The position numbers and the translations under genes were made by a program. The notes beneath the pieces were generated by a model. That model did not search any database and was not told the DNA's origin. It saw only the letters and a program-made list of their open reading frames with translations. From positions 88,222,355 through 88,286,354 of the forward strand of contig NC_132878.1 of NCBI RefSeq assembly GCF_030463535.1: a stretch of 64,000 nucleotides of DNA, read 5' to 3'. The stretch's first letter is position 1, and each line of letters starts with the position of its first letter. Positions 528 through 59,964 of the stretch are shown piece after piece. This DNA comes from Salminus brasiliensis. Lineage: Eukaryota; Chordata; Actinopteri; Characiformes; Bryconidae.

Positions 528-44325
<43,798 letters not shown>

Positions 44326-46895: not shown

Positions 46896-48289
46896 TACAC
46901 ACACACAGTTACAATCAGATATTCCCCTCCCCTTCCCCTTCCTTAAAAGATATTGGGATAATGTGCGTAGGGGTTGGCAATTGAATTGATCAAGAGTGGC
47001 ATCCGACCACAAATCCTTGGTTGTTGAGTTATAAACCCTGACCAGGGGGACTGAATATTGTAATTGTGTGTAAAATATTACAATTTATTTCTTTTGGCAA
47101 CAAATATCATTTAAATGTTGAACAGTACTAACTTAGTTTGCTACATGCAACATTTATGAATTATGCTAGTGCTGCCAAATTTCTATATTACTTCCATCCA
47201 TTGATATTTAATAAATTGGGAAGTGGCATCATTTGCTAAATCACATTTTCTGCTCTCTATTTCTAGCCTCAAATGATATACAAACATCTGACAGTTTAGC
47301 AAACAATGCTAATGCTGAACAATCTTTTTTTTCTATTATTTAATAAAAATTCTCAGAAAGAAAGCCTTTCATCAGGAGATGGTTTCTCTTAGTTTATGAA
47401 CTGCTGATATGCTTCACACACACAGGCTAATAATGCTCACTACAGTGCCACAGCTATGCATTGCGTTAATATTGACAATTTGGAAGCTTAATATGCCATT
47501 TTCTACCATTATATTTCCTACTTTATGGTTTAAATGCAATATTTTAGTGACTGTTTTATCCAGCGAACGTGATGAAAGCGCCTTTGCGTAAGAATGAACA
47601 CATCATGCGCAAGCAGCCAAACCTGCTTTTTCATCCCAAAACTGCTGTTTCTGTCTAAAGTGCCTCGAGCTAATGCGCCCATTTCATCATCACCTCTCTT
47701 CCCTGATCAGATCTCATTACACTGCATTTGACCATTTCTGACATGTAGCGTTTAAACCATGCTTACTGTTGCTTTGTGTGTCTGAGAGAGCGAGAGATGT
47801 TTCTGCTGTATTTTCTGCTTTGTATATGTTTGTGTGTGTTTGTGTATGTACTTCTCTGGCTGTGTTTGATCGGTATTGGGAGTGTATATGATTGCATTTG
47901 TGTGTTTTGTGGACGTGCTACTCCTGCTGCAGATGTAGCTGTTTAACTAAATGCACTGTATATGAAGCTGTATGAATATGAGAGTTGTGTTTAATAGCAT
48001 TTCTAACTGTGAGGGAGCCAATTCGGAGTCAGTACCTTACAGCACTCTCCACCACTCTATTCTGAATGTCTGGACTGGTTGCTTGTATTATAATTAAGGC
48101 TTAATTATCCATTAAAACATCTAAAAAAGAAGTCATACAGTAGTTGTGTTTTTATTAAACCTGCCTTTTTGTGATTGAATAAACACTGTTGCACTGACCG
48201 TGAAATGTCACAGGGTGTTTGGACCAGATTAACCTCTCAGTTCAGGTCGATGGGTGAGATATACAGTGAGATATAAAAGTGAGATATAA

Positions 48290-49566
48290 AGTTCTCCTAC
48301 TTAGAAAGATGAGCGAGGTCTGTAATTTTCATCATGGGTACACTTCCACTCTGAGGGACAAAATGAGAAAAAAATCCAGGAAATCACACCGTAGAAGTTT
48401 TTAAAGATTTTATTTGTAAATTATGGTGGAAAATAAGTATTTGGTCAATAACAAAAGTTCAACTCAATACTTTGTAACATAATCTTTGTTGGCAATCACA
48501 GAGCTCAAACGTTTCCTGTAAGTCTTCACCAGGTTTGCACACACTGTAGCTGGTATTTTGGCCCATTCCTCCATTAGATCTCTTCTAGAGCAGTGCTGTT
48601 TTGGGGCTGTCGCTGGGCGACACAGACTTTCAACTCCCTACACAAATTTTCTGAAGACTGGCTAGGCCGCTCCAGGACCTTGAAATGCTTTTTACAGAGC
48701 CACTCCTTTGTTGCCCGAGCGGTTTGTTTGGGATCATTGTCATGCTGGAAGACCCAGCCATGTTCCATCTTCAATGCTCTGACTGATGGAAGGAGGTTTT
48801 GGCTTGAAATCTCACAATGTTAATTCTGCCCTTAACACGGATCTGTCGTCCTGTCCCCTTTGCAGAAAAACAGCCTCAAAGCGTGATGTTTCCACCCCAT
48901 GCTTCAAAGTAGGTATGGTGTTCTTGGGATGCAACTCCGCATTCTTCTTCCTCCAAACACGACGAGTTGAGTTTGTACCAAAATGTTCTATTTTGGTTTC
49001 ATCTCTTCTGGATCATCCCTATGCTCTCTGGCAAAACTCTCGGGCATGGACATGCACTGGCTTAAGCAAGGGGACGCGCCCGGCACTGCAGGATTGAGTT
49101 CCTCTCGGCGTAGTGTGTTACTGATGGTAGCCTTTGTTACTTTGGTCCCAGCTCTCTGCAGGTCATTCATCAGGTCTCTCCATGTAATTCTGGGGGTTTT
49201 GTTCACCGTTCTCATGATCATTTTGACCCCACGGGATGAGATCTTGCGTGGGGCCACAGATCGAGGGAGATTATTAATGCTCTTGTATGTCTTCTATTTT
49301 CTTACAATTGCTCCCACAGTTGGTTTATTCACACCAACCTGCCACTGAAGTTACAGGTCTGTGAGAGCCAGAAATCTTGCTTTTTTTTGTGGGTGACCAA
49401 ATTACCTTATTTTCTACCATAATTTACAAATAAATTCTTTAAAAATCCTACAAAGTGATTTCCTGGATTTCTTTTTTTTTTTTTTTTTCATTTTGTCTCT
49501 CATAGTTGAAGTGTACCTATGATAAAAGTTACAGACCCCTTTCATCTTTCTAAGTAGGAGAACTTG
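48290..49566 (-). mobile_element. Tc1-family DNA transposon, nearly full length, inactive
   Basis: Terminal inverted repeats start at 48290 ('agttctcctacttagaaaga') and end at about 49566 with the reverse complement. They can be followed for about 160 bp on each side (to about 48450 and 49400), including 'aaattatggtggaaaataag'. The total of about 1.28 kb is the usual Tc1 size. The transposase lies on the minus strand between them but is broken. Exact outer ends and a TA target duplication are not certain. Confidence 0.85.
48574..49257 (-). pseudogene. Tc1 transposase, broken
   Basis: The N-terminal part (49257-48988) reads MAPRKISSRGVKMIMRTVNK and continues ITWRDLMNDLQRAGTKVTKA, the second DNA-binding helix region of Tc1 transposase. 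The C-terminal part (48774-48574) reads [20 protein letters not shown], the second catalytic Asp block, then ENLCREL. The two parts are in different frames and the middle is degraded. The usual length is about 340 residues; this copy cannot encode it. Confidence 0.8.
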
Positions 49567-50289
49567 CACAATCAGTGGCTGCCTGAAATACGTTTTTGCC
49601 CCGCTGTACATGAAGTTATTCCGACTGATTTGGTGAGCAGTGCACAGTTTATAGAGACACTTACTGCTTGAAAACCAGAGATCACAATGTGAAATGCTGC
49701 AAACGTATTTACTGTCCAACACCACCAGTGAAACTGCACTCTTCTGTGTATGTGTAATGTTGATAATGGGTAAATACCGTGGGAAATTCTCAAGGAAAGT
49801 CTAATAATTTCTAGGTATTACAAATGTCATTTTTATTTAATTGGATTGTAGAAGAGAACTTTGCACATATCAGTTACAGTCATATTATATTATATAAGTT
49901 TTGGTTAGAAATAAAAGTTTCAGAAGGCCTTCAGAACATCAACATTGCTGGTCAAGAGTGTGTTTAATCAGTGAAATCCAGGCATCACCTGTTGAAGGTA
50001 ACTGCATCACTTGTCAAATTCATCTGGAGGAAGGAGGGGTCATTAAAAATGCGTGAGAAAGTGAGAGTGTGAGATTAGGTTTTCACACTCAATCTGTGAT
50101 CGTTGGCAGTCTTGACATCAAACCACGCTCTCTGGTGAACCTTTTTAATGAACAAGATCATTTTGACTTGTTGCCATGCCATCATATTAAAATCAATGGC
50201 AAGCTGTACAAAAAAAAAAACCACTGGTGTGAACACAGCCTAACCTACATTCTACAGTTAATGCAAGACTTGTATTTTGAAAGATTTAA
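49567..50289. other. Intergenic, nothing recognised
   Basis: AT-rich sequence between the Tc1 element and the outer end of the inverted kinase arm. No supported gene or repeat. Confidence 0.4.
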
Positions 50290-51960
50290 TTAACTGTATT
50301 ATCTGAATTAAACTCTGAGTAGAAAAGGATAATGTTTCTGACTCACATACACACTCTTGTTATCATCCAGGCTCGTTCTTCCAGATTCGCTCCTATAGAC
50401 TTGTTCCTCTGGGCTCACTCCTCCAGGCTTCTTCCTCCAGGCTTGTTTCCAATCTGTTCCTAAACATGTTCTTTTTTTGTTACCTGCAGGTTTGTTTCTC
50501 AAGGCTTGGTCCTCTAGGCTCCCTCCTTCATGCTCGGCCCTGATCTGTTCTTGAACAACATGATACTAACAATATATACTTTACAGTTACCTCCAGACTT
50601 AATCTTCCAGCTCACTCCTCAAGGCTCACTCCTCAAGGCTTACTCCTGATCTGTTCTGGAACAACATATACCTTGAATGTGAATTATAGTCCTGAATCCT
50701 ACCGTACTGCTGGGAGATGAGGTGTAGGGATTCTCTCTGTCACTCTCTTTAGACTGCCCTCTTCCTGACCCTAATGTGTAGAGGAGGGGGTCATTACAGA
50801 ATATGAATACAAAGATCAAATTTACTTTCTCAAACTGACTTGTTCTGGTGGAAATTTCTGCACATGCTTTAAAAGAATCAGTATGGTGCTAAATCTTCTC
50901 AAAATTCTGGTAAAACAGAGCGTTTTAGACCAAGCATGCTCTGCAGGACTCTGTTCACAGCTTAACTGTTTAATTATGCAGAAATCTAAAGTAGATTATA
51001 AAAATGGGTGTGTTGTGAGGCGAAGACTTACACTCTTACTCTTCCTTGTTTGTAGTGACTGACGGAAGCTTTTCCACAACCTAAAAAAAAAAGAAATGTA
51101 TTTAACTGTAATTAAATTAAAATTACATTTAAAATGTTATAATATGTTTAAACATGATACTCAAGTTCCAGCACAATGATTTACTTACCTTTCTCGCCTC
51201 GACTGCAGCCAAGGGTGCTGTGCCACTTCGGTCATTGAAGGCCGAGTGTGAGGATTGTACTGCAGCATGTATGAGATGAAGGCTTGACACGGCTCCTCCA
51301 CTCTGACCCCCTCTGGATACTTTAAGGGTTCTTTCTGAGCACGTTGGAGACCATCCCTACTGTAAACTTCGAAGGGCAAGTGCCCGGTGAACATAACGTA
51401 AAGAACGACGCCAAGGCTCCACACATCACTCTTTTTGGGATCATGGAGCTCACCCTTAAGAACTTCAGGTGCAGCGTAGAAAGGAGTGCCACAGCCCGTG
51501 TGCGTTAGGTCAGGGGAGCCTCTTGAAAAGCACCCAAGACCAAAGTCTGTTAGTTTGACTTGATTGTCAGCTGTCAGCAGAACATTTGCACACTTAAGGT
51601 CACAATGGGCAATGTCCTGCTGGTGCAGATAAACCATTGCACTAAGGAGTTGAGAAAACCATGTTTTGGCCTGGTTGATGGGTATGAAGATCAGCTCTTG
51701 AATCTTTTGATCGAGATCCATCACGGCAGGCTCCATCACAATAAACACCTCTCTGCTCTCGTAAATTTCATACACCTGAACAATATGGTGACCAATAATG
51801 CTATGTTAAAAACTCAACCCAATTATTTTTAGTATATGCCCAGTTACCATTATTATTTAATTGATTTAGTGTTGGATTTTGACTGTTTTGTTTTGATTAA
51901 GATTAAGAATAATAAATAGATGCATAAATAATGGTACAAATACAGAAATACATCTGGAGC
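50290..51960 (-). pseudogene. Inverted, truncated copy of the TSSK-like kinase gene
   Basis: Read on the minus strand, three exons align to the intact gene at 54317: exon 1 remainder (about 51785-51189), exon 2 (51080-51032, 49 nt) and exon 3 (50770-50703, 68 nt against 83). Splice sites are conserved and exon 3 carries an in-frame 15-base loss. All three stay open. The copy begins at about residue 71, so the glycine loop, the VAIK lysine and the alpha-C glutamate are gone. It has no promoter or leader, and exons 4-5 are deleted: the sequence jumps from about 25 bases after the exon 3 donor into the downstream minisatellite. Relative to the intact copy it also lacks two residues after EIYE (MP) and has R for W in the YSxDG stretch. 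The catalytic loop HCDLKCAN and TDFGLG are kept. Most likely a recent pseudogene; a chimeric transcript from another promoter cannot be excluded. Confidence 0.8.
50370..50700 (-). repeat. Short inverted copy of the kinase-downstream minisatellite
   Basis: Reverse complement gives 'ggaggagtgagcc' type units and 'ctgtaaagtatatattgtta', the same two components as 57000-58740. It has only about 10 units against dozens in the plus arm. Confidence 0.8.
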
Positions 51961-53119
51961 GGCAGAAGCCCAGAGTGTTCATTGTCACCCTTACATTTTA
52001 ATAGTAATGGGACTGTTAGCTGAGGCCATCCATCAGGACCCTGCAGTATTTGGATTCAACTGGGTTCAATTAAATTCCATTTAAATCAGCTGTATTGGAC
52101 ATTATACTAATACAGGGTTGTACAGTACAACAAAACACTAAGACGTGGCAAATAAATACAATACAGTAAACACAAAGATGTGCATGTGCTTGTGCAAATG
52201 TGTGTATTAAGGATTTAAGATGCAGACTGTTACTATACCGAAAAATAAAATATATAGCATATAAGTATAAATATATAATGTACATAAGTACATGCATAAA
52301 TGGAGTACAGTGTACTCCAAGTGGTCTTGAATCTGGTGGTTTTGGCTCCGATGTTCCTTTACCTGCGGGGCTTGTGTTTAGCAGCAGTGGCACTGTTGTA
52401 TCAGACAAAGGAGCGGTTGTGTCAGGTTGACTCTTCTCAGCCTTTAGAGGAATGTAGGCTTTTCTGGGCCTTCCTGACGATGTGTGATGTGTTGAGTGAC
52501 CTGGTGAGATCCTCAGATACGTGGACACAGAGGTACTTACTCTGTCCGCCGCTGTCTTCTCAATGCAAAGCATGCACTCTTCTTCCCCTCCTAAAATCAC
52601 CAATCAGCTTGTTTTCAGTGCGCCGCTCTGCCAGGAGCTTCACTTCACTTCACTTAATCCCTTGTCATTGTGGGTGGTGTTGCCAATTTTTGTGTCATTA
52701 GTGAACTTAATGATGTTGTTGGAACTTTTGCAATGCAGTACAGGGTGTTGAGCATGGGTGAGAGGAAGCAGACTTGTGGGCATCCTGTGCTGAGAGTGAG
52801 GGTGGGGGAGGTGTGGTCACCCATTCTTATGGACAGGCAAGAGATGGTGGCTTTCTTTGGAACTGGGATATGGCTTGTGGCTTAAAGGCAGGCAGGAATG
52901 GTAGACTGTGCCAGGGAGATGTTGAATATGTCTGTGAAGTTAGTAGCCAGGTGGCTGGCACACGCTTTTAGGACTCTATCTGAGATTCCATCTGCGGCTT
53001 TCCATCAGCCGAGAACCAACCTAATACACACATTTGCACGAACACATGCACATATGTGACAGCAAACACCCTGGGCTGTTGCCGTTCCTAATTGATTACT
53101 GTCTTGAATTCTTATTATT
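51961..53119. other. Spacer between the inverted kinase arms
   Basis: A 1.16 kb non-palindromic spacer between the minus arm (50290-51960) and the plus arm (53120-58850). It is mostly occupied by a degenerate LINE on the minus strand. The plus- and minus-strand open frames over 52070-52701 are remnants of that element. Confidence 0.7.
52080..53010 (-). mobile_element. Degenerate LINE with reverse-transcriptase remnants
   Basis: On the minus strand about 52997-52885 decodes to [20 protein letters not shown] and continues [16 protein letters not shown] (family wording: DGI..RVLKACADQLA..FTDIFNLSL). Then 52795-52740 reads LSTGCPQVCFLSPMLNTL, the GxPQG..LSP block. After a frameshift comes SNNIIKFTNDTKIG, the catalytic FADDT block with Ala and the first Asp lost. 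The order is correct for a minus-strand reverse transcriptase; stops and frameshifts make it dead. The part below 52640 is probably its C-terminal and tail region. Confidence 0.7.
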
Positions 53120-53300
53120 TCTGTATTTGTACAATTCTTTGTTTTTTGTATTTCCACATTTATGTATGTTTGTATTATTCTTTGTTAATCAAAACAAAAT
53201 CAAAATCTAACAACATTAAATTAAATATTAATGGTATAAATGAATTAGTAACTGGGCATATACTGTTAATAATTAACAGGGCTACATTTTTAGCATATAA
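53120..53300. repeat. Inner end of the inverted repeat, plus arm
   Basis: 'ctgtatttgtac', 'ttaatcaaaacaaaatcaaa' and 'gtaactgggcatatact' are found as reverse complement at 51960-51800. This marks the inner end of the palindromic duplication. Confidence 0.75.
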
Positions 53301-53679
53301 AAAAAAAAACAGAAATGTGGCTATCCTGAATTCATGCAAAACTGTTTTTTACTGTTTTCTTAAAATGTGAATTTTGCATTTCAATTATTAATTCATTTTC
53401 TGAAATTGGTATAACCCAGTGCTGTCTGGTTAGCTTTAATATGGGTTATGTCAGCCTGTGCATCTATACTGATGTAGATAAACAGTGTTTAGTGTCTGTA
53501 ATTGTAAAACTGTTTGTGTTTTCTAGCTTCAGGCCCAGAAGATTCATTATTGTTCAGGAAACTGAACATGTTGAGGCTCCATAGAGTTTCACAATATAAT
53601 CAACATGATTTTGCTCATAAAATGAATGACATAATAAGAGTGTGTAATATTTCTAATGAGGTTTACTTAATCTAATATA

Positions 53680-53935
53680 ACATTTTAATGGAAGATCTTA
53701 AAGAATGCACTGACAAATACGTGATAAGAGAGAACATCCAGAGGGGGCAAATACTTTTTCACAGCACAGTGTGTACATACAGTCATATACAGTCAGTGAG
53801 GTCAAAGGGAAGCACAGGTCTGCTCCTCATAACAATTCAGAGTGGGATATATGAAAGACCTCTCCATTGTGACATCACACTGATGATGTCACAGTGGCTC
53901 CTATAAAAGGCGGGGTTCTCCCTCACTGGCTCAGT
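53680..53935 (+). promoter_or_regulatory. Promoter of the TSSK-like kinase gene
   Basis: A TATA box, TATAAAA, is at 53902-53908 and an initiator-like CTCAGTC at about 53931-53937, 25-30 bases downstream. Just upstream is a perfect dyad: TGTGACATCA at 53868-53877 and TGATGTCACA at 53884-53893, separated by six bases. Each arm contains a TGACATCA, one mismatch from the CRE/ATF site TGACGTCA. The whole module from about 53580 is repeated almost unchanged at 63560-63935, which supports function. 'gggggcaaatactttttcac' at 53737 resembles a Tc1 transposon terminus. Confidence 0.7.
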
Positions 53936-54109
53936 CAGGATTCAGCAGCTCGAGAGACAGTTGATTTCTGCATTGACATTGAAGCTGATTTCGTTAGGCT
54001 GAGGCTCTTATCTAGAGAACTTTTATTAGAACCAGTTACACGGGTTCTACATCTGCTTTTATTAGAACCAGTTACACAGGTTCTTGTTTAGCTTCTTACA
54101 TAGGACAAG
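53933..54109 (+). other. Untranslated leader exon of the kinase gene
   Basis: Follows the TATA box and ends at donor ACAAG|GTAAGC (54109/54110). The matching acceptor CATCTACAG| at 54309 joins it to the start-codon exon seven bases before ATG. It contains two copies of a 37-bp unit (54021-54092) with 'attagaaccagttacac' and 'ggttct'. No ATG begins a long frame in it. The splice is inferred from sequence. Confidence 0.6.
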
Positions 54110-54316
54110 GTAAGCACCATTTACTGATTACCGATCACATCATTGAACCGCTTAAGGCAAAAAAAAAAAAGTTAAATGCACAACATAGCGTCACATATGC
54201 TAGTGAGAGAGTGAAGGGATTCAATCACAGACTGGGTTAAAGCACGAGGCATTCGCTTTCACTATCTCACAACCTCCTTCTAATCTTCATCTCCACTTTT
54301 CATCTACAGGGTAAAA

Positions 54317-55131
54317 ATGGAAACCAGCAGAGTCCTGAGAAGTTTTGGATTCCAAGTATTGTGCACCATCGGTGAAGGGAGTTATGGAAAGGTCAAGCTT
54401 GCCACATCTGAAAGGCACTGCAAAGAGGTGGCCATAAAAATAATGGACCCTATAATGAAGGCACCTGATTTTTTTTCTAAATATCTGCCCCGGGAACTCG
54501 CCATATTGAAAAAAGTGAGGCACCCACATATTGTTCAGGTGTATGAAATTTACGAGATGCCTAGCAGAGAGGTGTTTATTGTGATGGAGCCTGCCGTGAT
54601 GGATCTCGATCAAAAGATTCAAGAGCTGACCTTCATACCCATCAACCAGGCCAAAACATGGTTCTCTCAACTCCTTAGTGCAATGGTTTATCTGCACCAG
54701 CAGGACATTGCCCATTGTGACCTTAAGTGTGCAAATGTTCTGCTGACAGCTGACAATCAAGTCAAACTAACCGACTTTGGTCTTGGGTGCTTTTCAAGAG
54801 GCTCCCCTGACCTAACGCACACGGGCTGTGGCACTCCTTTCTACGCTGCACCTGAGGTTCTTAAGGGTGAGCTCCATGATCCCAAAAAGAGTGATGTGTG
54901 GAGCCTTGGCGTCGTTCTTTACGTTATGTTCACCGGGCACTTGCCCTTCGAAGTTTACAGTTGGGATGGTCTCCAACGTGCTCAGCAAGAACCCTTAAAG
55001 TATCCAGAGGGGGTCAGAGTGGAGGAGCCGTGTCAAGCCTTCATCTCATACATGCTGCAGTACAATCCTCACACTCGGCCTTCAATGACCGAAGTGGCAC
55101 AGCACCCTTGGCTGCAGTCGAGGCGAGAAAG
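54317..55131 (+). CDS. Kinase gene coding exon 1 (whole kinase domain)
   Basis: Acceptor CTACAG| at 54309, ATG at 54317 (context AAAAATGG), donor GAAAG|GTAAGT at 55131/55132, leaving in phase 2. All catalytic motifs are in this one exon, as in the mostly intronless TSSK genes. Without splicing the frame would stop two codons into the intron. Confidence 0.88.
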
Positions 55132-56695
55132 GTAAGTAAACCATTGTGCTGGAACTTGAGTATCATGTTTTAAACATATAATAACATTTTAATTGTAATT
55201 TTAATTTAATTACAGTTAAATACATTTCTTTTTGTTTAGGTTGTGGAAAAGCTTCCGTCAGTCACTACAAATAAGGAAGAGGAAGAATGTAAGTCTTCAC
55301 CTCACAACACACAACACCCCATTTCTATAATCTACTTTAGATTTCTGAAGATTTAGCACCATGCTAATAGGTTGGCTAAATGGTAATATTACAATAATAA
55401 GGCAATATTAGCCTTATATCTTCAGACCTAAAACTAAAAAATCTCATTTCAGACACCAAACGTGTCTCGGCTGAAATTAGATTTTTAGACAAACTGTTGC
55501 TTTAAAAAACCACTTTCTTTTAAAGCATGTGCAGATATTTTCACCAGAATGAGTTGAAGCAAAACTGTTAATGTTTAACCAGTAAATTTGATCTTTGTAT
55601 TCATATTTTGTAATGACTCTCTCCTCTACACATTAGGGTCAGGAAGAGAGCAGTCTAACTAGAGTGACATATTCCCCTCGCAGTGGAGAAACCCCTACAC
55701 CTCATCCCCCTGCAGCACGGTAGGTTTTAGGACTATAATTCACAAGTTCTGTAGTCATTTTCAGTCTAATACGTAGTATATGAGGTGGGCAGCAGAAAGA
55801 TTGCCCATAAGGAAACATGTACCAATACAGAAATGATCAAAATCCTGTGATTTATTTATCACGTGTGTTGTATCTCTGCTGTCTCCATTAACATGTCAGG
55901 AGTTTGTGTTATAGACTGATTAAAGTCACTCAGAATGAAGAGCTTTTTGTAATAAGTAATTAGTAAATAGGGAATGTACAGTATTAGTTTATTACCAATA
56001 AGTTAAAAATCAAAGAAGACTTATTTTCCACATTGCTTCTGTACCCCCTCCAGAGTTGTTGGCAGATTTGTTGTGACCGTCGTTGAAGAGGATGGAGAAG
56101 GCAGTTTTAACAGAGACGTCAACCCGCTTCAGGAAGACGGCAGCAGTAGAGCTGATGCAAGTTTAACTTGCCAAAGCATAGAGGTTACGGAGGAGGAGGA
56201 GGAGTATGGCTGCTTCAGCTGTTATCCACGTGGTGGTGCAGTTAAAAGAGCAGATAATACTCATGTCCTAGCACCAATTCTCAGATCCTCCCAGTCACTT
56301 CTAGAGAGGATGAAGAGGTTTTTTAGGAGGAACTCTATGGTGCACGACTCCTCTTCTGCTCAGCAGCTTGCTAGTCATTCTGCTGCCTCTACAGAAGCTC
56401 CTGCTTGTTCCACTGAGCAGAGGCATGAAGATGGGGCTCCAGATGTCCTGGTTTGTGAGCCAGTGGTCGAAGCAGAAGCTGTGGAGGCACAGTCCACAGT
56501 GCGGCAGAGATCCAGGAGGCTGAGATTCTCCATGTTTAAGGTATGCGAGTCAGTACTGAGTGATTGTAAGAGCTTCAGATTTTAAACCTTAAAATCACTT
56601 TAAATATTTGTCATAAATGTCTCAGTTGGTCCATCATTATCAATTTGTTTCTCCAACAGATCCTGAAGAAGACGAACAGGGTTCACCCCTTGTAG
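54317..56695 (+). CDS. TSSK-like serine/threonine kinase with C-terminal extension, 5 coding exons
   Basis: Exons 54317-55131, 55240-55288, 55637-55719, 56054-56540 and 56660-56695 join in frame to 1,470 nt (489 aa) with GT-AG introns. Kinase domain residues 12 to about 270: glycine loop GEGSYGKV (19-26), Lys41 in VAIK, Glu60 in LPREL, catalytic loop HCDLKCAN with Asp135 and Asn140, DFG at 153-155, APE at 178-180, and WSLGVVLYVMFTGHLPF. GEGSYGKVK, AP.DF..K.LPREL, DLKC.N and YAAPEVL are the wording of testis-specific serine kinases (CAMK group). The Arg of HRD is Cys134, so this is a non-RD kinase, but Lys, Asp, Asn and DFG are all present and it is probably active. The tail (273-489) is basic, then serine/acid-rich, holds GRFVV at 319-323 (RFxV type) and ends RRLRFSMFK plus ILKKTNRVHPL. 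Known TSSKs act in spermatids; the role here is inferred only. An inverted truncated copy lies at 50290-51960. Confidence 0.85.
55240..55288 (+). CDS. Kinase gene coding exon 2 (49 nt)
   Basis: Acceptor TTGTTTAG| and donor AAGAAT|GTAAGT. Encodes LWKSFRQSLQIRKRKN, a basic linker. It is conserved in the inverted copy at 51080-51032 with the same length and splice sites, which supports the exon. Confidence 0.8.
55637..55719 (+). CDS. Kinase gene coding exon 3 (83 nt)
   Basis: Acceptor CACATTAG| and donor GCACG|GTAGGT. Encodes GQEESSLTRVTYSPRSGETP plus TPHPPAA. The inverted copy keeps it with a 15-base in-frame deletion, consistent with selection or recent origin. Confidence 0.75.
56054..56540 (+). 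CDS. Kinase gene coding exon 4 (C-terminal extension)
   Basis: Acceptor CCCTCCAG| and donor TTTAAG|GTATGC, leaving in phase 0. Encodes VVGRFVVTVVEEDGEGSFNR and onward, an acidic EEEEEYGCFSCYP patch, the basic LLERMKRFFRRNSM and the end RQRSRRLRFSMFK. If the intron is retained the frame continues to TAA at 56583-56585 with an unrelated 15-residue end. Confidence 0.75.
56660..56695 (+). CDS. Kinase gene coding exon 5 (last 11 residues)
   Basis: Acceptor CTCCAACAG| gives ILKKTNRVHPL and TAG at 56693-56695. The TAG is followed directly by ATG and an open frame in the same phase to 56881, see the separate entry. Confidence 0.6.
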   Translation: MLKKTNRVHPL

Positions 56696-56881
56696 ATGTC
56701 TACCATGGCTCCCAGGAATGATGATGTATGGGCTGGGTTTAAGTTTGAAGGGAACGTCCCGCTCCATGGGCTGGTGGTGGAAGCAGAAATTTTGCTCCCA
56801 CAGCCCAAAGTGATGCAGGAACCCTGGAGACTGAGGCTTCTGCTCCCCTTTCAGATGATCCAAACGAAGGTTCAACTTTAA
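56696..56881 (+). other. In-frame 61-codon extension after the kinase TAG stop
   Basis: The frame continues without a stop from 56696 to TAA at 56879-56881. It contains LVVEAEILLPQPKVMQEPWR followed by LRLLLPF, which aligns with PVVEAEAVEAQSTVRQRSRR and LRFSMF in exon 4. DNA similarity at about 56768-56850 to 56460-56540 supports an old internal duplication. Either the TAG is a recent nonsense change, it is read through, or this is decaying 3' UTR. Confidence 0.45.
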
Positions 56882-56999
56882 AGTATGTGGAATGTTTTCT
56901 TTCTATCTTCTTGATCGTCGATGTGAGCTTTAGGACACACACTCAGGAGTGAGCCCAGAAGAACGAGACCGGAGAAAAGAGCTGTAGGAGTAATTCTGG

Positions 57000-58745
57000 A
57001 GATCTGAGACAGGAGTCTGAGCTTGGAGAATTGACTCTGGGGGTTACTGTAAAGTATATGTTGTTAGTATCATGTTGTTCAGGAACCGATCAGGAATGAT
57101 TCTGGAGAAACAAGCATTAAAAAACAACCCTGGAGATGTGAGCCCCGAAGAAGGAGTCTGGGGGTGATACTAAAGGAGCGAAAGAATTAGGCTGGAGGAG
57201 AGTCTGGAGGTAACTGTAAAGGATATGTTGTTAGTATATTGTAGTTTAGGAACAGATCAGGACTAAATATGGAGGATTGAGCCTGGAGGAACAAGGAAAT
57301 TGAGCCTGGAGGATTGAGCATGGAAGACTGAGCCTAGAGAAACAAGCCTGGAGGAATGAGTCTGAAAGAATGAGTCTGAAAGAATGAGTCTTCTGGAGGA
57401 TTGAGTATGGAAAAGTTAGTCTAAAACAATTAGTCTGGAAAATTGAGCGTGGAGAATTGAGCCTGGAGAACAGAGCCTAGAGAAACATGCCTGGAGGAAT
57501 GAGTCTGAAAGAATAAGTCGGAGAGAATGAGTCTGGAGGAGTGAGCCTGCAGGTAACTGTAAAGTATATGTTGTTAGTATATTGTAGTTCAGAAACAGAT
57601 CAGGACTAAATATGGAGGATTGAGCCTGGATGATTTGAGCCTGGAGAAACAAGCCTGGAGGAGGGAGCATAAAAGAATGATCATGGAGGAGAGTCTAGAG
57701 GTAACTGTAAAGTATATGTTGTTAGTATATTGTAGTTCAGAAACAAATCAGGACTAAATATGGAGGATTGGGCCAGGATGATTTGAGCCTGCAGAAACAA
57801 GCCTGGAGGAGGGAACATGAAAGAATGAGTCTGAAAGAATAAGTCTGGTAGAGGATTGAGTCTGGAAAATTGAGCCTAGAGGTTTGAGCCTGGATAACGG
57901 AGCCAACAAAAACAAGCCTGGAGGAATAAGTCTGAAAGAATGAGTCTCAAAGAATGAGTCTGGAGGAGTCAACCTGGAGGAGTGAGCCTGGAGGTAACTG
58001 TAAAGTATATGTTGTTAGCATATTGTCGTTCAGAAACAGATCAGGACTAAATATGAAGGAATGAGCCTGAATGATTTAAGCCTGGAGAAACAAACCTAGA
58101 GGAGGAAACATGAAAGAATGATCCTGAAAGAATGCTCCTGAAAGAATGAGCCTGAAAGTATAAACCTGAATAAATGAGCCAGGAGGAGTCAGCCTGGAGG
58201 AACGAGCCTTGAAGAACAACCCTGGGGATGTGAGCCCAGAAAAAAACGAGTCTGGACGTGATTCTAGAAGAGTGAAAGAATTAGCCTGGAGAAGAGTCTG
58301 GAGGTAATTATATATACGTATATATTTAAGTATATGTTGTTAGTATCTTGTAGTTCAGAAACAGATCAGGACTAAATATGGAGGATTTGAGCCTGGAGAA
58401 ACTAGCCTGGAGGAGGGAGCAAGAAAGAATGATCATGGAGGAGTGAGCCTGGAGGAGTGAGCCTGGAGGAGTGAGCCTGGAGGAGTGAGCCTGGAGGAGT
58501 GAGCCTGGAGGAGTGAGCCTGGAGGAACGAGGCTGGATGAGTGATCCTGGAGGAACGAGCCTGGAGGAGTGATCCTGGAAGAGTGATCCTGGAAGAGTGA
58601 TCCTGGAAGAGTGATCCTGGAGAAACGAGCCTTGAGGAGTGAGCTTGGAGGAGTGAACCTGGAGGAGTGAGCCTGGAGGAACAAGCCTGGAGGAGTGAGC
58701 TTGGAGGGACTAGAGGAGCGAGTCTGGAAGAATGAGCCTGTATGA
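57000..58745 (+). repeat. Composite minisatellite downstream of the kinase gene
   Basis: The small unit is about 15 bp, 'ggaggagtgagcctg' and variants (aacgagcctgg, atgagtctgaaag), most regular at 58437-58710. Interspersed is a longer module, 'taactgtaaagtatatgttg' then 'ttagtatattgtagttcaga' and 'aacagatcaggactaaatat', at about 57044, 57212, 57555, 57702, 57993 and 58308. So there is a higher-order structure with spacings of roughly 150-340 bp. Open frames through it on the minus strand (SRLTPPGSLLQ repeats) are artefacts. Confidence 0.9.
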
Positions 58746-58850
58746 AACAGCCTGTGTTAAAGTAATAAAATACTGAATAACAAGATGTAGTGTGTATTTG
58801 AGTCAGAAACATTATCATCTTCTACTCAAAGTTTAATTCAGGTAATACAG
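58746..58850. repeat. Outer end of the inverted repeat, plus arm
   Basis: 'gagtcagaaacattatcatc' and 'tttaattcaggtaatacagt' match the reverse complement of 50290-50365, so the plus arm extends to here. Confidence 0.75.
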
Positions 58851-59964
58851 TTGTGTGAGGTTAGATTTCATTAAATATTTAAATGGTAACAAATTAAAAT
58901 TACTTTGTCCATAAATATGTTCACCACAGAGTGTGGTTTGATGTCAGGGCTGCCAAATGTCACAGATTGGCTGTGAGACTCCAATTAGCTCTAATCTCAC
59001 ACTGTCAAACTTGCCATTTCTCTCACATTTTTAGTTTACTCCTTGTTCCTCTCCTAAAGAATCTCTGGATTAATTTGACAACTTTATCAGTATCCTTCAA
59101 CAGGTGTTGCTCCAGATTTAACTGATTAAACATACTCTGGACTGGCAATGCTGGCTTTATAACATTTTATTTTGAACTAAAACTAAGATAAGATCAAAAT
59201 AAGACAAGTACTTGCAGAGTTAAACCAATTCTATACTACAATCAAATTCTATTAAATAGAAATGAACTAAAAGTGCACATATTTTACCCAGAAATCATTA
59301 AACATTCTCTGATGGCCTAGGAGGCCCTAAGGGTTCTGTATGCACAAGAAAGTAGTTTAATTAAAACACTACTACCGTTTGATTCCTGATATATGTGTAA
59401 ATTGATAATTAGGCCTTAATTAGAATACAAGCTCACAGAAATGCTATTAAACATAACTCTCGTGCAGATTGGCTGAGACAACCTGCATTAAATAATGACA
59501 GTATGTCCATTTTATTTTTTGGTGAGGTGTTTTGGTACTGTTCTGGTTTGATTAGTGACCTGGGGTACCTGGAGATTTAATAAATTTACTTCATATATTC
59601 TAGAAGTCTAAGATACATTGAAAAATCTGAATTTTGAAAGTTAATAAATATCTGAACCCTGTCTGTGAATGTTTCCTTGAGAATAAAAAATCACATATGC
59701 CTGCAAACCTTCCCAGGCTCCTATCTCAGCCAGCGATGTGTTATGTGAGAAAATTCCTATCAAAATAGCTTTTGCTTCTCTGAAAAACAGGTGCCTACAG
59801 AGGTCCTTCAGAAATTAAATTGTCCAAACAAAAAGTCTTAGAAAGTGTTTTGTATTCTTATATCCAGAACTATGTGGTCTCTTGCTTTTGTTGCCACTGT
59901 CCAGGGAAGGCTTTCTACTAGAATATGGCAACAAGAGAGTTAGTGAGGTCAGGATAGTGATAGT
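58851..59964. other. Intergenic, nothing recognised
   Basis: AT-rich sequence without a supported gene or clear repeat. Confidence 0.4.

Follow-up and report, generated by a model that had tools for sequence, protein, structure and literature searches.

A truncated gene copy faces a tandem array of intact kinase genes

The 64,000-nucleotide stretch of the Salminus brasiliensis genome analysed here (C1:88222355-88286354 in an assembly of 1.07 Gb and 103 contigs, hereafter the window) contains two oppositely oriented copies of a TSSK6-like kinase gene. The minus-strand copy, M (50083..51950), was delimited by its reverse-strand matches to the plus-strand copy and is a truncated relic that lacks the promoter module. 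The plus-strand copy, P1 (53116..58976, from alignment and genome search), is the first of four intact copies arranged in tandem. The two are separated by a spacer (51951..53115).

M and P1 constitute a head-to-head inverted duplication. They lie on opposite strands with their 5' ends facing, and their flanking DNA matches on both the inside and the outside. This arrangement, with one arm internally deleted, was proposed in an earlier note made from the DNA letters, together with a self dot-plot as a check. Comparison of the window with itself yields a single long match on the reverse strand here, pairing 54527-55347 with 51787-50979 at 96.5% identity over 822 bp. In gapped local alignments, the inner flank (53116-53297 with 51950-51802) scored 114, compared to a maximum of 34 after the minus side had been shuffled by single bases 200 times. 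The outer end (58777-58852 with 50363-50292) scored 110, compared to a maximum of 29 for 200 shuffles. The same approach aligned intron 2 and exon 3 across the arms (55515-55744 with 50877-50678), as well as the 3' minisatellite. The correspondence claimed for the inner ends, the kinase C-terminal lobe (C-lobe), exons 2 and 3, the minisatellite and the outer ends is thus borne out, and the arms extend some 200 bp beyond the outer ends originally assigned to them (58883-58976 with 50177-50083, 80%).

A genome search with 53100-53600, using a method that skips very common words, returned three places: P1 itself, the inner end of M (73%) and the third tandem copy, P3, from 53431 on. The possibility that the inner ends are a dispersed repeat was rejected on this count of three. 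The outer part of M (50060-50882) has its top scores against the tandem copies P1-P4 (77-78% over the first 200 bp, gaps included), with other places in the genome matching by shorter or weaker pieces; derivation of this outer arm from another branch of the family was rejected for this reason. Hence, the flank common to the two arms is rare in the genome, and M is a member of the C1 cluster.

An inverted pair of this kind could also be a false palindrome created during assembly. However, a false join would be expected to yield near-identical arms, while the noncoding DNA of the arms observed is 4 to 11% diverged and large deletions set them apart; there is also no N in the window. We consider an artefact extremely improbable and rejected it on the divergence of the arms.

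P1 is an intact TSSK6-like gene

Five coding exons with GT-AG junctions are predicted for P1, giving a total of 489 residues. Exon 1 (54317..55131, plus strand) encodes a complete kinase domain, with a Pfam Pkinase score of 217 bits. The closest solved structure is TSSK6 (PDB 8otz, 274 bits, E 9.7e-81, query residues 4-268), the next molecule reaching 151 bits. Exons 2 (55240..55288) and 3 (55637..55719) are followed by exon 4 (56054..56540), which encodes a tail, and by exon 5 with the stop codon (56660..56695), all on the plus strand; exons 4 and 5 are both missing from M. A minisatellite with a 14-bp unit lies 3' of the gene (57301..58707, plus strand). Judged by these matches, P1 can be assigned to the TSSK family kinases with its kinase domain complete, M being a copy without the N-terminal lobe (N-lobe). 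Among the kinase motifs, P1 carries the lysine of VAIK as well as DFG and APE.

The P1 kinase domain is about equal in length to that of TSSK6 (SSTK), but the P1 gene differs in having five coding exons, an extra tail of ~217 residues and a catalytic loop that reads HCD in place of HRD. HCD is found in all five copies of the C1 cluster, whereas HRD is present in all seven other family copies aligned. A genome search for the HCDLKCAN-type DNA pattern, allowing zero mismatches, returned five places, namely P1-P4 and M.

A promoter-like module lies upstream of P1 (53870..53908, plus strand), consisting of a TATA box and two octamers that resemble the cyclic AMP response element (CRE) and are spaced 14 bp apart. 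The module is present in all four plus copies and in four of the seven further family members examined (C1:80.76 Mb, C3, C29 and C26). Of the remaining three, the C2 gene carries a single octamer along with a TATA box, the C16 gene has an octamer but no TATA box, and neither element occurs at the C11 gene. The module is suggestive of expression in testis or spermatids, in keeping with the known biology of CREM and of TSSK kinases (background on the latter in PMC7401350).

Three further copies, P2, P3 and P4, come after P1 on the plus strand in units of ~10-11 kb; all four copies encode 489 residues with conserved junctions. The window ends within the promoter and leader region of P2 (63555..64000, plus strand, from self-comparison and reading of the array), the P2 ATG lying 331 bp past the window end. 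A 37-bp tandem repeat of 8.8 copies lies upstream of P2 (62338-62662). The same unit recurs within the leader region of P1 (54020-54098), and a similar array is located upstream of P4.

M has lost its promoter, N-lobe and tail

Relative to P1, M is missing ~1.23 kb that holds the promoter module, leader and N-lobe (53298-54526 in P1), ~1.3 kb that holds exons 4 and 5 (55745 to ~57049 in P1) and most of the minisatellite, in agreement with the deletions listed earlier. A further gap of ~150 bp in intron 2 (~55362-55514) was absent from that list. All of the segments missing from M are present in P1-P4, and an outlier gene at C1:80.76 Mb, related at 81% across the kinase exon, has the N-lobe and exon 4; the deletions are therefore losses in M.

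Alignment to P1 identifies three exon remnants in M, all on the minus strand. The exon 1 remnant (51189..51787) covers the C-lobe from codon 71 with two codons (MP) missing, and forms part of a near-identical core; it differs from P1 by a 6-bp deletion and six substitutions, of which three are synonymous and three nonsynonymous, too few to show selection. The exon 2 remnant (51032..51080, 49 bp) keeps its GT-AG splice sites. The exon 3 remnant (50703..50770) is net 15 bp shorter than its P1 counterpart, from which it differs at 11/69 aligned bases, and carries a TAG in the unspliced donor. Beyond these, a remnant of the 14-bp-unit minisatellite is present (50335..50647, minus strand).

The earlier note considered this remnant still open in frame with working splice sites. 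The splice sites are indeed conserved, and the frame is open through exons 1-3 for ~239 codons, ending at the TAG of the unspliced exon 3 donor. However, no in-frame ATG occurs ahead of the C-lobe remnant after the last stop in the 90 bp upstream, and the CRE/TATA module was not found in the 700 bp upstream of M. The open frame consequently says little, given the lack of an ATG ahead, the loss of the promoter module, the TAG in the donor and a core in which array sequence may have replaced the original. As the glycine loop and catalytic lysine are missing, M would by itself be unable to encode a working kinase. With intron 1 and parts of intron 2 kept and coding capacity apparently lost, M is best classed as an unprocessed pseudogene.

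A truncated product could nonetheless be made and act as a dominant-negative or decoy fragment, a dead kinase without an N-lobe that acts on intact kinases or their partners. The open frame, the GT-AG splice sites and the methionine codons inside the remnant would allow this, and copies without the N-lobe exist elsewhere, as at all three C28 places matched across the corresponding junction (one of them, L019, read). Against it stand the missing promoter module, the absence of an in-frame ATG ahead of the C-lobe and, more tentatively, the changes in exon 3; the three synonymous and three nonsynonymous changes in the core are too few to reveal selection. We regard expression of M as a decoy as highly improbable.

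Divergence between the arms is uneven

The earlier note took the open frame and splice sites of the remnant as a sign that the event was recent. We counted substitutions in noncoding DNA, comparing M to the plus copies, for two sets, a core (intron 1 and the 5' part of intron 2) and a flank set (flanks and other intron pieces). The core differs at 10/256 positions (3.9%) and the flanks at 48/427 (11.2%; Fisher p = 6e-4). The contrast holds without the outermost piece (30/333, p = 0.02) or without the inner flank (32/287, p = 0.002), and is significant in three of four choices of flank pieces, flank divergence ranging from 7 to 11% with many indels. Gap columns number 2 in the core versus 73 in the flanks (p = 5e-12, although columns are not independent events). 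Within M, identity shifts at ~50880, at the extra intron 2 gap.

The high-identity tract of M starts at the edge of the deletion (51787) and runs to ~50883. It matches P3 best (911 bp, 97.0%) and not P1, since M and P3 have in common ~80 bp of intron 2 that is absent from P1, P2 and P4. At 54856 the M base matches P2 alone, while at 54929 it matches P1 alone. A stretch of close identity set within homologous sequence that has diverged further is what gene conversion is expected to leave, and the mosaic of shared variants fits exchange between M and several plus copies, in either direction.

The plus copies differ mutually by 0-2.5% in the intron pieces compared and by ~2-7% (gaps counted) in intergenic matches, so that the array itself appears more alike at its genes. 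Taken together, these two unlike measures of divergence suggest an inverted pair that predates the tandem array, with a core of much younger appearance than the remainder of M.

Several points weigh against this interpretation. The contrast fades (14/193, p = 0.14) once the inner flank and the outermost piece, the most diverged of the flank set, are omitted together, and the segment limits were chosen after the data had been seen. A large part of the core encodes protein, which may itself explain its likeness. The 80 bp common to M and P3 could be ancestral and lost in P1, P2 and P4, and parallel mutation could account for each of the single bases shared. Finally, the inverted arm could be a misassembly.

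The rival history along the lines of the earlier note, in which P1 underwent one recent inverted duplication with rapid deletion on one side afterwards and without gene conversion, would account for the 96.5% identity of the core, the C-lobe that departs from P1 by only a few changes and the retained splice sites. It does not readily accommodate flanks diverged by 7-11% with many gap columns, or a best core match in P3 that includes the ~80 bp missing in P1. Only the core has a recent look, its contrast with the flanks weakening in one of the four choices of flank pieces, and we judge this history unlikely. Instead, we consider it probable that M is an old inverted-duplication pseudogene that underwent asymmetric deletion and was then partially homogenised by gene conversion with the array.

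Neighbouring features and possible antisense pairing

The spacer carries a dispersed repeat fragment (~52073-53003) for which a genome search gave 454 first-look candidates, 40 of them scored. The earlier note called this a dead long interspersed nuclear element (LINE). Its dispersed nature is clear, while the LINE class is unconfirmed because the two longest open frames of the spacer, the only ones searched, match no Pfam family at E <= 1. Outside the arms, a Tc1-type transposase remnant occupies 48289-49565, with an HTH_Tnp_Tc3_2 domain (Pfam) at 48991-49293, and is enclosed by inverted repeats (48289-48456 and 49385-49565). Further upstream lies a plus-strand FAM171A1-type gene, with its C-terminal domain at 42.5-44.3 kb.

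An inverted pair with arms of 820 bp and 96.5% identity might conceivably form double-stranded RNA and give rise to small RNAs directed against the kinase array. The geometry of the arms suits a hairpin, and transcription from the FAM171A1-type gene could in principle read through M in antisense. Hairpin-RNA loci of the Drosophila testis, as presented in PMC10317233, offer a precedent and a likeness, being inverted repeats of gene pieces near their parent genes. The present locus differs in its long loop of ~2.7 kb with the promoter-like module of P1 inside it. It also belongs to another phylum, the precedent coming from flies. The chance that M acts in this way appears slight.

Truncated copies elsewhere in the kinase family

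A genome search with the kinase exon gave 446 first-look candidates, of which 40 were scored, and the family counts are thus lower bounds. Among the 40 scored places, 5 fall in the C1 cluster (including M), 1 at C1:80.76 Mb, 23 on C2, 9 on C3 and 2 on C29; 38/40 lie on the plus strand of their contig. Family copies also occur on C8, C26, C28, C11 and C16. Arrays are located at C2:32.61-32.87 Mb and C3:19.89-21.32 Mb, with tandem or dispersed family places on several chromosomes. A literature search found neither TSSK6-like arrays across chromosomes nor a TSSK expansion in fish in the titles or abstract openings of the matches listed.

On C3 (loci L012 and L013), a minus-strand truncated kinase, starting from codon 219, faces two intact plus copies, and L013 contains an inverted pair (1641-3065 with 4999-7052). 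A minus-strand match to this relic is present 1.6-2.1 kb upstream of all nine C3 kinase copies listed, and the C8 locus L017 matches the relic-bearing C3 unit over 8 kb at 95.5%. The C3 relic is 88-95% identical to a C26-type gene (L018), compared to 73-89% for its own locus in mirror orientation. It is thus not a local mirror copy, and arrived at a like architecture by another route; the idea that it records the same event as M was rejected for the same reason.

We compared eight family loci outside the C1 cluster with themselves in search of inverted pairs (L007, L009, L011, L012 and L016 being left out). A pair was found in two, L013 (C3) and L017 (C8), and was not found in the other six: L008 (C2), L010 (C29), L014 (C16), L015 (C11), L018 (C26) and L019 (C28). 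On C28, three of three matched copies span the junction, and L019, the one read, lacks the N-lobe up to ~codon 68. The copy at 4851-5465 of L019 is without both promoter region and N-lobe, and its breakpoint at codon 68-69 is 6-9 bp from that of M (codon 71). As the inner flank of M was found only in the C1 cluster, the shared breakpoint is treated as a coincidence.

Truncated copies therefore occur more than once in this family, from which no function follows. It might be argued that oppositely oriented truncated relics recur, are co-amplified and play a regulatory part, acting through antisense or double-stranded RNA or as decoys in a conflict over sperm kinases. Recurrence can be cited in its favour: M on C1, the relic facing intact copies at 9/9 listed C3 copies and one C8 locus. 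Against recurrence, 6/8 of the other self-compared loci have no inverted pair. A separate parallel is the Smok/Tcr responder kinase of the mouse, likewise an amplified family of sperm-type kinases with an altered member; the likeness is confined to gene content and takes in neither drive nor expression nor sex linkage. A regulatory role for the relics seems very unlikely, and ordinary gene-family decay within a large, multi-array kinase family is most likely.

Proposed history of the locus

The old-pseudogene history favoured above can be set out in four steps. The arrangement of the arms, the polarity of the losses, the unequal divergence and the variants held in common with different plus copies are observed, whereas conversion, the sequence of steps and an absence of function in M are inferred from them. 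A TSSK6-like gene and its unique upstream flank would first have undergone head-to-head inverted duplication, before the array formed. Deletions in one arm, one of them nearest the symmetry centre and removing promoter, leader and N-lobe, would then have inactivated M and broken the palindrome. The surviving plus gene may subsequently have expanded to four tandem copies. Finally, the region of M from the C-lobe to the 5' part of intron 2 would have been rewritten by gene conversion with the plus copies, giving it a young look while the rest remained old.

In genes arranged head to head, the part nearest the centre is the 5' end, and a central deletion accordingly takes the promoter and N-lobe of one copy. 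We infer that the need to remove central symmetry may be what caused the 5' deletion of M. Primary work on the asymmetric deletion of long inverted repeats is reportedly that of Akgun 1997 and of Collick.

Tandem duplicates on opposite strands form long inverted repeats that provoke recombination and conversion, and an asymmetric deletion that abolishes central symmetry lets such genes persist (as outlined in PMC2547482). A deletion in one arm following inverted amplification has likewise been described in yeast (PMC4689423). The present locus resembles the opposite-strand arrays as presented in PMC2547482, where most array pairs are parallel, in that a one-arm deletion has destroyed the central symmetry. 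It differs in two respects: the stabilising deletion is pictured there as harmless to the genes, falling for example in introns, whereas here one gene has been destroyed, and exchange appears to have continued in the remaining arm.

Dating the locus by its best-matching stretch alone would make the event look recent. The window thus provides a natural case of a palindromic gene pair that was seemingly resolved by one-sided central loss, with the neighbouring stretch still exchanging with the array. The multi-chromosome TSSK6-like kinase family present in this one genome may merit a study of its own.

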